A DNA stretch of 64,000 bases from NCBI RefSeq assembly GCF_001280425.1, contig NZ_LIUF01000001.1:1-64000 (forward strand). The letters run 5' to 3'. The DNA is from Haloarcula rubripromontorii. Its GTDB lineage: Archaea; Halobacteriota; Halobacteria; Halobacteriales; Haloarculaceae. This document shows positions 37,239 to 41,493 of the stretch, one piece after another (position 1 is the first letter of the stretch; each line of letters begins with the position of its first letter). The translations under genes were made by a program, and so were the position numbers. The notes below the pieces were generated by a model. The model saw only the letters and a list, made by a program, of their open reading frames with translations. It was not told the DNA's origin and did not search any database.

Positions 37239-37430
37239 TTACGCTTCGACTGGGTTGTTCATCTTCCGGGTGACGTAGCCGGCGATGCGGTTGCGGACAC
37301 CCTTGGATTCGATGTTTGTCAGTTCCTCGACGACATCTTTGTTGTGTTCGAAGTCGGCACCGAAGGCGTCGGGGTATCGCTCCATGAGGAGCGTCCCGGT
37401 CTTCTTGACGTAGGCGGGTTTGATTGCCAT
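37239..37430 (-). CDS. rps17e: 30S ribosomal protein S17e
   Basis: 63 residues: [20 protein letters not shown], then [20 protein letters not shown] and [11 protein letters not shown], the complete archaeal S17e. The start at 37430 fits a TATA-like TGATAAACGT at 37486-37495, predicting a leader of about 30 nt. Confidence 0.96.
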
Positions 37431-37603: not shown

Positions 37604-38221
37604 CTACCACTCTGCGTCGACCAGGTCGCGAACGCGCTCGAATGCCGCCCGTTCGCGCTCGCTCCCAGCGGTCTCGACCACTGACTCGAAGTACGCAAGT
37701 CGGTCCAGCAGCGCCTCGCGGTCGTAGCTCGGCACGTCCAGCCGCGAGGCCGCGACGGTCGCCTCGACGACGGCGGCGTGGCCGCGGTTGGTCGTCGGCA
37801 CGACCCGCCGTTCAACGGCGCTGTCCACTGGCTGTAGCGCCCACTCGACCCACTGGGTGTCTCCCTCTGTACCGGCGTCTCGCCGCTTAACGTTTACTTC
37901 GACCCACGCGTCCGCGCTGTCGAGGACGGGGTCGTCTTCCTCGCGGACCGATAGCGCCGCCTCGGCGAAGTCCACCGGGTCACGCGTGAACTGGACGTAG
38001 CCGCCGCCGCGCTCCCGAAAGTTCCGCCAGGTCCGGGTCCGGCCCCACGTCGTCGCCGTGGCTGGTCCGTCGCCGTCGGGCGCGTGGACGCCGAGGGCAG
38101 CGACGTTCCAGCGCTCGTTCGGCCCCAGCGTGGTGACGACAGTCTCGGTGACGCCGGCGAGCGCGACGGGCCACGCCGTCTCGGAGTCCCGCCCGCCGCC
38201 TGCCGAGGAATCCGCTGTCAC
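37604..38221 (-). CDS. DUF447 family protein
   Basis: 205 residues from a GTG at 38221 that forms a GTGA overlap with the CitG-like gene. It has the flavin-reductase-like split-barrel character of DUF447 (ETVVTTLGPNERWNVAALGV, TWGRTRTWRNFRERGGGYVQ, VNVKRRDAGTEGDTQWVEWA, TTNRGHAAVVEATVAASRLD). Function unproven; in methylotrophs relatives are recalled next to tetrahydromethanopterin genes. Last gene of the four-gene overlapping operon. Confidence 0.8.
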   Translation of the reverse strand: MTADSSAGGGRDSETAWPVALAGVTETVVTTLGPNERWNVAALGVHAPDGDGPATATTWGRTRTWRNFRERGGGYVQFTRDPVDFAEAALSVREEDDPVLDSADAWVEVNVKRRDAGTEGDTQWVEWALQPVDSAVERRVVPTTNRGHAAVVEATVAASRLDVPSYDREALLDRLAYFESVVETAGSERERAAFERVRDLVDAEW

Positions 38222-39057
38222 ACTTCCAGCCCCCGCTCCAGCGCGACGAACAGCGCACCGGCAACGATATCCGCAGTCGTTCCAGGGTTGATGTCCCGCT
38301 CGACGAACTCCTCGGCGAGGTCGGTTGCGTCTTCGTCGCCGTCGAGAACGGCCTGTGCCCGCGTCTGGACCTCCTCTGCCGTCTCGCGGTCTTGCCGGGT
38401 GACGACGAAGGTGTCCGGGTCCGCCGCGAGCAGTTCGAGGAAGACATCGGAGGCGCGGTCGGCGACCGACCCGGACCCCTCCAGTAGCCACTCGCTGGCC
38501 TCGAACACACGTTCGAAGCCGGAAACCCACTCCGCGGCCACGCCGTCGACGTCGGCGCTCGACTCCATCACGTCGAACAGCGTCAGCTCACGCGCCCGGA
38601 GTTCCGGGACGGCGTCGCTTCCGCGGCGAACGTCGAGCGGCTCCAGCCCGTCCGGCGGGTCGTCGACGGCCACGTCAACGTGCTCGAAAGCACGGTAGAA
38701 CGCCGCCGCATCCTCGACGGTCGACTCACGGACCACAGTGTCCACGCCGGACGGTGACAGCCGCTCGTCAGCGGCCGCGGCGACTAGCGGCGTGAGCACC
38801 AGCAAAGCCCCGAACTGGGTGTTCCCACCCGACTGGCCGGCCATCCCCTCGACCGCAGCCTCGAACGCTGGACCGAGGGGGTCGCCCGCGGCTGCGCGGT
38901 CAAGCCCGGGTCGTGCTCCGACAGCGCCGGCCAGGAAGTGCTCGAATCGGAGGTCGTCGTACTCCCGCTCTCGGTCGACGTTGCCGGGCTTCGGCGTCCC
39001 GGAGACTTCCAGCAGCAGCGCTAGCTGGGCGTTCTGCCCGACCGACCGCTCGCTCAC
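38218..39057 (-). CDS. CitG-like (triphosphoribosyl-dephospho-CoA synthase family) protein
   Basis: 279 residues. The family motifs are visible: SGTPKPGNVDRE (about 24-35), MAGQSGGNTQFGALLVLTPL (about 82-101) and ERDINPGTTADIVAGALF near the C-terminus. CitG makes the prosthetic group of citrate lyase, but no citrate lyase genes are near. The start GTG at 39057 overlaps the previous stop (GTGA). The neighbours CofD and DUF447 suggest a cofactor-related nucleotidyl or ribosyl transfer instead. Confidence 0.82.
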   Translation of the reverse strand: MSERSVGQNAQLALLLEVSGTPKPGNVDREREYDDLRFEHFLAGAVGARPGLDRAAAGDPLGPAFEAAVEGMAGQSGGNTQFGALLVLTPLVAAAADERLSPSGVDTVVRESTVEDAAAFYRAFEHVDVAVDDPPDGLEPLDVRRGSDAVPELRARELTLFDVMESSADVDGVAAEWVSGFERVFEASEWLLEGSGSVADRASDVFLELLAADPDTFVVTRQDRETAEEVQTRAQAVLDGDEDATDLAEEFVERDINPGTTADIVAGALFVALERGLEV

Positions 39058-39800
39058 GGTGACACCTCCGACGCGAACCACGACGCGGTCGTCGCCCGCA
39101 CCTCGTCGAGGACTGCGGGCCGGTCGCTCGCGCGACCGACGCTGACGGCGTCCGCGCCATACGAGAGGTACTCACGCGCGGTTTCGGTCCCTCGGACCCC
39201 GTTGTTCGCAACGATGAACAGGTCGGCGGCGTCGGCCACGTCGGCGACGACCGGCTCCGAGTCCATCGCGTCGACGTGGAACATGTCCCCGCCGGCCGCT
39301 TCGATAGTCCGAGCGACGGCGGGGAGCGAGACGCCGTCGAGTTCGGCACGACCTTTCACCGAAACCGTCGCCCCTGTCGCCGCTGCTGCTTCCACGAGCG
39401 TCGCCAGTCGGTCCGGCTCACGGAGTAGTGACTCGCCAGCACCGGCGGCACACATCTCGTCTTGCCGGCAGTGGGCGTTAATTTCGAGGATTGCGCCGTG
39501 GCGCTGACAGACGGCGGCGGTCCGCGCTACGGGCGCTGTCGTCGCGCTCCGGACGTTGAACGCCGGGCGTAGCGGAGCGTCTTCGAGCGTGCCGAGCTGG
39601 TCGTCGACGAACGCGACCGGGTCGTCGGGCAGGAACTCGGAGCGGTCGCGGTCCCTCATCGCTCGGGCGGCCTCGCGGGTCTGGTCGTCAAGTGCGATAC
39701 CGCCGAGGAACGCACACCCGATGTGGGACTCGACCGCGCGGGCCCACGATGCGTCGGCCTCGCCGCTCAGACTCGCCAGAGCGACTCGCGGCTCGAACAT
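39054..39800 (-). CDS. Dihydrouridine-synthase-like FMN TIM-barrel protein
   Basis: 248 residues in the COG0042-like flavin barrel superfamily: EINAHCRQDEMCAAGAGESL (position of the catalytic Cys segment in Dus enzymes), ATVSVKGRAELDG, and the FMN phosphate site FIVANNGVRGTETAREYLSY then ADAVSVGRAS. It is shorter than true Dus proteins and lacks their C-terminal RNA-binding domain, so a small-molecule substrate is likely. ATGA overlap with cofD. Confidence 0.75.
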   Translation of the reverse strand: MFEPRVALASLSGEADASWARAVESHIGCAFLGGIALDDQTREAARAMRDRDRSEFLPDDPVAFVDDQLGTLEDAPLRPAFNVRSATTAPVARTAAVCQRHGAILEINAHCRQDEMCAAGAGESLLREPDRLATLVEAAAATGATVSVKGRAELDGVSLPAVARTIEAAGGDMFHVDAMDSEPVVADVADAADLFIVANNGVRGTETAREYLSYGADAVSVGRASDRPAVLDEVRATTASWFASEVSP

Positions 39801-40792
39801 CAGGTCACCTCCGAGAGCGCCGTCTCGACGGCGCGGCTCACCCGCTCGGCGTCGGCCGCGTCGTCGAGGGTCGTGTCGGTTCGGACGACGGGGACATCGA
39901 GTGTCGTCGAATCGTCATCGTCCAGTACGAACGCGTCGGCGAAGGGGTACGCCTCGGCCACGCCGGCGGTACTTGGCTCACGTCCGACGCCGGCCATCAG
40001 GTCCGCCGCCGGCCCCGAGAACACCGTGTCTTCGATGAATGGGGAGACGGCGACGACCGTTGTTTCGTGGAGTGCCTGTTCAATCTCATCGATGGCGAGC
40101 ATCGGTCCGAGCGAAGTCACAGGGTTCGACGGACCGATGACAACAGTATCGTCGAGCGCGGTCAGAACGGCGTCGGTCGCGCTGGCCGCCGCAGAGCCAC
40201 GAAACTCCACGTCCTCGACCGGCGGTTCCCCGCCGTGACCGACCCACCACTCCTGGAAGTGCATCGGGCCGTCGGGCGTGTGGACGATGGACGCGACGGG
40301 GTCGTCGCTCATCGGCAACAGCGACCGCTCCAGTCCGAAGGCGTCGGCGAGCGTGCGCGTCACCTCAGTCAGTGATCGGCCCTCATCGAGGAGCGAGGTG
40401 CGCGTGACGTGGACCGCGCGGTCCCGGTCGCCGATGTGCATGAACTCCGCAACGCCGGAGAAGCGCCGCCAGCGAGCGATGTCACGCCCCGCTGTCTGTG
40501 CGTCGTCGGGAAGGTATCGCGGCCCGCCGTCAAGCCCGGCGGCGTCAGCGAGTCGCGTCAGTTCAGTGTGTGTCTCGGTGGTGTCGCCGTCGATGCCCCA
40601 CCACGTCTCCCGGTCGAGGACGCCACCGTCTAGGAACAGGACAGTATCGAGGTCCGGGCACACGAGGTGGCCTCCCAGTTCGATATCGTCGCCGGTGTTG
40701 GCGACGACAGTCGTCGCCGCCGCGGAAAACACGTCGTCGGCACCGGCGAGGAGCTTCGGCGTTCCCGTCCCACCGGCGAGAAACGTCACCAT
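39800..40792 (-). CDS. cofD: 2-phospho-L-lactate transferase CofD
   Basis: Joins a phospho-lactate or phosphoenolpyruvate-derived group to Fo in coenzyme F420 synthesis. The 330-residue protein has [39 protein letters not shown], the [12 protein letters not shown] loop, and [15 protein letters not shown], all CofD motifs. First gene of the operon, with TATA-like TTTATACT near 40819 giving a leaderless message. Confidence 0.95.
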
Positions 40793-40953: not shown

Positions 40954-41493
40954 ATGCCCATCGTGAATCCACACCGCTTCGCGCCTGCAGCCTCCAACGA
41001 AGAGTACGTCTACGGCTCCTGTGCGCCGGGCTGGCATACGGCCGCCGCGCATCAGGACGCTCTCGATGAGTGGGTCGCACACATGCAGGCACACGACATC
41101 GAGCGGGTCTGCTGTCTGCTTCCCGGGCGACAGCTCGACGACGCTGGGGCCAATATCCAGCGCTATCGAGAGGCTTTCGGAGCGTCATCAGTCCGCCACG
41201 TACCGGTTCCCGACCACCGACTTATTCCTCAAGACCGCCTCCACGACGATATCTTGCCGTTCCTGGTTGACGCCTGTGAGACAGAGGAGCGGGTCGTCGT
41301 TCATTGCCTGGCCGGTATCGGCCGCACCGGCCAGGTACTCGCCGCCTGGCTGGTGTACCATTACGACTACGGCCCCGACCGCGCCATTGAGACCGCTCAG
41401 GAGATGGGCCGCGACCCCAGAGATGCTATCAAATCGGGGAACGCGACTGAAGCAGAACTGTCCGATCTGCTGTCATCAGTCGCACGCCTGTAG
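40954..41493 (+). CDS. Dual-specificity/tyrosine protein phosphatase family protein
   Basis: 179 residues with the phosphatase signature VVHCLAGIGRTGQVLAA (Cys about 113, Arg about 119), a preceding general-acid loop HRLIPQDRLHDDIL, and the C-terminal SVARL. The HC-x5-R motif is complete, so it should be active on phosphoprotein or phosphorylated small molecules. Start ATG at 40954 opens MPIVNPHRFAPA. It diverges from cofD. Confidence 0.87.
   Translation: MPIVNPHRFAPAASNEEYVYGSCAPGWHTAAAHQDALDEWVAHMQAHDIERVCCLLPGRQLDDAGANIQRYREAFGASSVRHVPVPDHRLIPQDRLHDDILPFLVDACETEERVVVHCLAGIGRTGQVLAAWLVYHYDYGPDRAIETAQEMGRDPRDAIKSGNATEAELSDLLSSVARL

Follow-up and report, generated by a model that had tools for sequence, protein, structure and literature searches.

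The first 64,000 positions of Haloarcula rubripromontorii contig NZ_LIUF01000001.1 (the window; genome code G000) carry, on the minus strand at 37604-40792, four overlapping genes for CofD, a flavin TIM barrel resembling dihydrouridine synthase (Dus), a CitG-like protein and a DUF447 protein. Open reading frames and profile matches bore out this gene content, as originally predicted from the sequence. The accompanying proposal of one undescribed pathway did not survive gene-neighbourhood and phylogenetic-profile analysis, which resolved the operon into two separable modules, CofD-TIM and CitG-DUF447. It is slightly more likely than not that the operon joins an F420 phospholactyl pair (CofD and a flavin reductase) to two enzymes of methanopterin-arylamine synthesis, both parts serving the F420H2-dependent route from a methyl-pterin to methionine. 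The features of the operon are as follows.

40823-40818, minus strand: TTTATA box, 26-31 nucleotides 5' of the cofD ATG, seen in the sequence
39800..40792, minus strand: cofD, 330 aa, ATG start; TIGR01819 363.5 bits against a cut-off of 257.45, Pfam CofD 3e-42
39054..39800, minus strand: Dus-like flavin TIM barrel of the MJ0144 family, 248 aa; Pfam Dus 7e-10, TIGR00736 5e-29
38218..39057, minus strand: CitG-like protein (PF01874), 279 aa, GTG start; Pfam CitG 4.6e-72
37604..38221, minus strand: DUF447_N plus DUF447_C protein, 205 aa, GTG start; Pfam 4.8e-27 and 3.3e-17

Profile searches were carried out in 155 genomes of the haloarchaeal order, with an identical draw for every family. The CitG, DUF447 and MptG (RFAP-synthase) families were each found in 152, and all were missing from the same three genomes: G008 and G049, both in genus g4, as well as G104, a g5 species with sister species that keep all three families. 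These genomes keep CofD, Mch and a TIM gene directly adjoining CofD. The TIM family was also found in 152 genomes, and a different three are without it (G017, G246 and G198); there CofD-CitG-DUF447 is kept and the TIM gene is gone. Loss of TIM together with CofD, which had been predicted, was not found, CofD being present in 155/155. Because the loss patterns differ and the loci are separable, CofD-TIM and CitG-DUF447 are two modules rather than one pathway.

The chance of the same-three coincidence is 1.6e-6 per family pair if genomes are taken as independent; the co-loss represents at least two independent loss events, and the statistic is weaker when counted as two, yet several families agree. 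In H. rubripromontorii CitG-DUF447 lies on contig C1, MptG on C4 and Mer on C7, and the loci are separate in the g5 sister species too. Since MptG and Mer sit apart from CitG-DUF447, a single deletion cannot account for the co-loss. Nor does a small genome by itself explain the losses, as G240 (2.2 Mb) and G254 (2.3 Mb) keep CitG, DUF447 and MptG. With respect to methionine synthesis, Mer, the F420-dependent methylene-tetrahydromethanopterin (methylene-H4MPT) reductase (HVO_1937 in Haloferax volcanii), gave no match over cut-off in G008, G049 and G104, and none in G207 (genus g14). Methionine synthase (PF01717) was missing from G104 alone, with one weaker copy in each of G008 and G049 and at least two copies in nearly all others. 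G207 is the sole genome of the 155 without Mer that has CitG, DUF447, MptG and methionine synthase, which may reflect an assembly gap.

Within the operon all three junctions overlap, as had been claimed, by a 4-nucleotide GTGA at both TIM/CitG and CitG/DUF447; the cofD/TIM junction is TGATG with a 1-nucleotide overlap, and not the ATGA described. The TTTATA box suggests, by analogy with the usual haloarchaeal promoters, a single leaderless transcript. Neighbourhoods were counted in 70 haloarchaea from three families, adjacency being defined as within 1.5 kb. CofD adjoined TIM in 70/70 and CitG adjoined DUF447 in 70/70, while TIM adjoined CitG in only 48/69. The full order recurs in a non-haloarchaeal archaeon, G001 (locus L060), as CofD-TIM-CitG-DUF447 followed by a dihydromethanopterin reductase gene (over the TIGR02700 cut-off), a PHP-domain gene on the opposite strand and a DHPS-like gene (TIGR00284). 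Given the two constant pairs and this recurrence, the four-gene arrangement far exceeds chance expectation.

A single undescribed cofactor pathway, leading to a modified F420, a pterin or a coenzyme A-like molecule, would be in keeping with the overlaps and with the identical order in haloarchaea and G001. However, CitG, DUF447 and MptG are lost while CofD and TIM stay, TIM is lost while CofD, CitG and DUF447 stay, and the TIM-CitG junction is open in many of the haloarchaea counted. The genes downstream of cofD also occur without it, at least for DUF447 and CitG: most of the sampled methanogens, as well as methylotrophic bacteria, have them with no neighbouring CofD, and the Sulfolobus acidocaldarius control has the CitG, DUF447 and MptG families with no CofD over cut-off and with Mch and TIM absent. 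On the loss patterns and separable loci we rejected one pathway for all four genes, to which we assign a very low probability.

The original prediction had placed CitG-like and DUF447 relatives beside tetrahydromethanopterin genes, and this was confirmed in G001 and in bacterial H4MPT clusters. CitG adjoined DUF447 in 30/30 DUF447 loci fetched from the phylum. In haloarchaeal genus g107 (G288 and G259) a cassette of mer-CitG-DUF447-MptG is accompanied by two divergent MetE genes, and a plasmid of Halobellus limi carries npdG followed by mer-DUF447-MptG-MetE-MetE. In G259 the mer-CitG-DUF447-MptG-MetE cassette is, by its coordinates, apparently present twice, on C8 (14812-20336) and on C2 (3177-8743). 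In clusters for bacterial methylotrophy a CitG relative lay 2.0-4.6 kb from MptG in 28/28 plasmid records compared. Azoarcus KH32C and Paraburkholderia have DUF447 in one cluster with MtdB, Mch, Mfn-like genes and the DHPS-like DUF6513; in Azospirillum CitG stands with MptG, MtdB, Mch and Fae, DUF447 not being among the genes listed. A scan of the genome collection with bacterial CitG returned one locus, in Methylocystis rosea, where Mch and a RimK-like gene adjoin CitG.

The haloarchaeal MptG homologue (G000, C4:75045-75992) is separate from the operon and scores 154.5 bits against the TIGR00144 subfamily cut-off of 113.5. The product of RFAP synthase is the methanopterin arylamine precursor, and the ribitol of methanopterin bears an alpha-linked ribose 5-phosphate; CitG itself moves a triphosphoribosyl group from ATP to the ribose hydroxyl of dephospho-coenzyme A. 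By the title of a 1992 paper by Zhou and White (as cited in PMC3261824), Sulfolobus contains an aminophenyl-tetrahydroxypentane modified folate. On the evidence of homology, co-loss and gene clustering, the CitG-like and DUF447 proteins are candidates for a part in building the RFAP-derived arylamine of a methanopterin-type carrier. As a CitG relative sits in methanopterin clusters, the CitG-like protein would be a natural candidate for phosphoribosyl transfer. The assignment of DUF447 to a reductive opening of the ribofuranose is weaker. Its solved relatives (2iml, 2ptf, 2nr4, 3b5m) are annotated as uncharacterised proteins, and it gave a faint match to an FMN (flavin mononucleotide)-binding protein; we take the family to be an FMN split barrel. 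Nothing relevant came up in literature searches for methanopterin together with either DUF447 or CitG, and an assignment may already exist in the literature.

That the CitG-like protein is a true triphosphoribosyl-dephospho-coenzyme A synthase for an acyl-carrier prosthetic group appears extremely unlikely. It has a Pfam CitG match, it shares the KPG..V, N..G and PG..AD motifs with Escherichia coli CitG, and its closest solved chain is 3h9p (1.5e-24). With CitG and MdcB it has in common the Pfam fold family and some glycine and asparagine motifs. Unlike those synthases, it falls far below both equivalog cut-offs (TIGR03125 for citrate-lyase CitG, 45.4 vs 272.3 bits; TIGR03132 for MdcB, 45.0 vs 282.35 bits). 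In the tree it groups in a separate clade with archaeal CitG proteins, E. coli CitG standing out as an extreme outlier. The flanking genes scanned include none for a citrate or malonate lyase or decarboxylase, the rest of the genome not having been searched; to that extent the earlier statement that no citrate-lyase gene is nearby holds. DUF447 is moreover its invariable partner. A prosthetic-group function was rejected on the equivalog scores, the tree, the flanks and this partnership.

With respect to the other module, CofD is an ordinary equivalog, and its TIM-barrel neighbour scores 101.6 bits against TIGR00736, under the cut-off of 218.7. The barrel has the motifs NAHCR at 108-112 and KGR at 149-151, the archaeal form of the Dus motifs (NxGCP and KxR) that hold the catalytic cysteine and lysine. 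Across 24 TIM relatives the HCR of NAHCR, the K and R of KxR, the H and D of HxD, and NN were invariant. Its profile matches are to Dus first, and then to dihydroorotate dehydrogenase and FMN enoyl reductases. Enzymes of these three groups reduce C=C bonds or catalyze the reverse reaction. A single-sequence structure prediction gave a mean pLDDT (predicted local distance difference test) score of 59 and was not used.

A genuine tRNA dihydrouridine synthase that stands in the operon by chance would explain the family membership, the retained catalytic cysteine and lysine, and the fit to the archaeal Dus subfamily signature NxHC[K/R], KxR, HxD (PMC3674756). The protein, however, is only 248 aa long with its Dus match confined to 88-237, and has no C-terminal tRNA-binding domain, as had been noted before. 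Members of that archaeal subfamily and TIGR00736 share this feature along with the motifs. It scored 33.7 bits against 293.3 for the DusB equivalog. The haloarchaeal proteins also differ from the archaeal Dus and TIGR00736 group in falling under the cut-off, in being without the marker-9 domain discussed below, and in occurring where tRNA dihydrouridine is absent: the family is present in Haloferax volcanii, whose tRNA contains none (PMC2584109). Dus identity was rejected on the missing domain, the H. volcanii tRNA and the constant pairing of TIM with CofD or CitG-DUF447, and we consider it very unlikely.

From the homologies, the separation into two modules, the co-loss of CitG, DUF447 and MptG with Mer and MetE, and the common gene clusters, we infer the following scheme. 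CofD, a 2-phospho-L-lactate or enolpyruvyl transferase, would attach a three-carbon phospho-acid to Fo, and the FMN-dependent TIM barrel would most likely reduce a C=C bond, dehydro-F420-0 being the best candidate substrate. The RFAP synthase homologue would form a ribosyl-aryl C-glycoside, whose ribose DUF447, as a flavin enzyme, might open or reduce towards ribitol. The CitG-like protein might then use a nucleotide donor to place a (tri)phosphoribosyl group on a ribitol hydroxyl, much as CitG does on the ribose of dephospho-coenzyme A. Mer, which uses F420H2, would convert the methylene-carrier into the methyl-carrier for a pair of MetE-type methionine synthases. Placing cofD-TIM and CitG-DUF447 in one transcript would fit this scheme, since supplies of F420 and of the carrier meet at the Mer reaction. 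Among the cofactors first guessed for the operon, a modified pterin is the best-supported choice for CitG and DUF447, and F420 suits CofD and, less securely, TIM.

In its furthest-reaching form the proposal is that haloarchaea make a methanopterin-type carrier (a pterin bearing a C-ribosylated, phosphoribosylated arylamine) for F420H2-dependent Mer and MetE-type methionine synthesis, with the CitG-like protein as the missing phosphoribosyl transferase and DUF447 as a flavin step of methanopterin synthesis in all archaea and methylotrophs, and with TIM as the dehydro-F420-0 reductase; taken together, we regard this as doubtful. A number of observations count against the two-module scheme. Co-loss of Mch with CitG, DUF447 and MptG was tested for and was not found, Mch being present in 155/155 genomes, and the loss of methionine synthase in G008 and G049 is only partial. 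The MptG homologue is under the cut-off of the RFAP-synthase equivalog NF040726 (173 vs 328). Haloarchaea are described as using folate, with methanopterin-specific enzymes absent and HVO_2628, the MptG homologue of H. volcanii, probably not making RFAP (PMC8305020). In contrast to that account, the profiles argue for an RFAP-synthase homologue retained alongside two methanopterin-cluster genes, Mer and MetE. Because G008, G049 and G104 keep Mch, the CitG-DUF447 module cannot be needed for all one-carbon chemistry, nor for Mch, and some of that chemistry must be able to run on plain folate. An arrangement of two carriers, or a modified folate, is possible in haloarchaea.

The CitG-like and DUF447 proteins may instead modify ordinary folate or some other ribosylated molecule, the co-loss of Mer and MetE then reflecting general methionine auxotrophy. 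The folate use reported for haloarchaea and the absence of any methionine synthase from G104 are in line with this explanation. It is at odds with the presence of the RFAP-synthase homologue among the co-lost families, with the cassette containing mer and MetE and the H4MPT clusters of the bacterial partners, and with the retention of everything in the small genomes G240 and G254; we think it rather unlikely.

The remaining counter-evidence concerns the TIM barrel. CofC is able to use phosphoenolpyruvate, giving dehydro-F420-0, and an archaeal reductase for this product was predicted, though not identified, in a study that sought it only as nitroreductase folds near cofE (PMC6450877). The constant presence of a flavin barrel next to CofD makes TIM a good candidate for this reductase ('CofX'), an assignment by homology and position that we put forward tentatively and hold to be somewhat more likely wrong than right. 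A sole archaeal reductase would be expected in every F420-making genome, and TIM is absent from G017, G246 and G198, all of which have CofD. It is also absent from about one quarter of the phylum sample, including the CofD loci of G006 and G024. The existence of CofD genomes and loci without TIM shows it to be dispensable for F420. The best substrate of archaeal CofC is 2-phospho-L-lactate (PMC8764529), with which no reductase would be needed.

TIM might also belong to the pterin module, for example in ribose or pterin reduction, its position beside CofD in haloarchaea being incidental. In non-haloarchaeal genomes, methanogens included, it adjoins CitG-DUF447 in 74/81, and in G116 it adjoins DUF447 apart from CofD; in the methanogen copies examined it is fused to a methanogenesis marker 9 domain. 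The two non-haloarchaeal copies that we scanned (L060:7574-8680 and L068:10949-12058) carry this 'methanogenesis marker 9' fusion, and all aligned haloarchaeal copies are without it. Against a pterin role, the three haloarchaea that have lost CitG, DUF447 and MptG retain TIM beside CofD, at 61-62% identity to that of H. rubripromontorii; the CofD-TIM pairing is unbroken in the haloarchaea counted; and S. acidocaldarius has CitG, DUF447 and MptG yet no TIM. We therefore consider a pterin role possible but improbable.

The proposed joining of F420 and arylamine enzymes resembles several known systems in part. H4MPT clusters of methanogens and methylotrophic bacteria likewise contain CitG-like, DUF447 and RFAP-synthase homologues, there with Mch, MtdB, DHPS-like and flavoprotein genes. 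Unlike in those clusters, only the CitG-like/DUF447/MptG part was observed in haloarchaea, joined to cofD-TIM where H4MPT itself is reported absent, and it appears ultimately to serve Mer and methionine synthase instead of methanogenesis or the oxidation of formaldehyde. The CofD equivalog with a flavin protein next to it recalls mycobacterial FbiA and FbiB, where the FMN domain of FbiB reduces dehydro-F420-0. In contrast to FbiB, the flavin protein here is a Dus-like TIM barrel, neither of the nitroreductase fold nor fused to CofE.

One account gives the non-pterin half of methanopterin nine or more steps and counts roughly seven methanopterin proteins as unidentified (PMC3087415); the role of F420 in haloarchaea has been described as undetermined (PMC8498797). 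The operon offers named candidates in the genetically accessible H. volcanii for the methanopterin arylamine steps and for the archaeal dehydro-F420-0 reductase, and a likely job for haloarchaeal F420 would be reduction in the methyl branch that leads to methionine. If the proposal is true, a methanopterin-like carrier in haloarchaea would be new, since methanopterin biosynthesis is said to be lacking there, and the accepted view that folate replaces methanopterin in these organisms would need correction (both PMC8305020).

Several further genes were observed around these loci. A PHP-domain gene recurs between the DUF447 or flavoprotein genes and the DHPS-like gene, at L060:10897-11562 (-), L076:12069-12740 (-) and L068:8920-9555 (+), recognized by a Pfam match for L060 and by similar N-terminal sequence for L076 and L068. 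Its protein is possibly a phosphatase of the pathway in archaeal methanopterin clusters. In G024 (L076:6929-8694 (+)) a DUF763 protein and a calcineurin-like phosphoesterase are encoded between CofD and CitG. G006 (L075:5921-8466 (+)) is similar, with an additional methyltransferase and with the DUF763 reading frame broken or split. In the window, the gene for ribosomal protein S17e (37239-37430, minus strand) shares the strand of DUF447 and lies 3' of it, with about 170 nucleotides between the two, and S17e is likewise 3' of DUF447 in Natrinema thermotolerans (L035). On the other side of the operon, a dual-specificity/tyrosine phosphatase-like gene (40957-41493, plus strand) diverges from cofD just beyond the cofD promoter.

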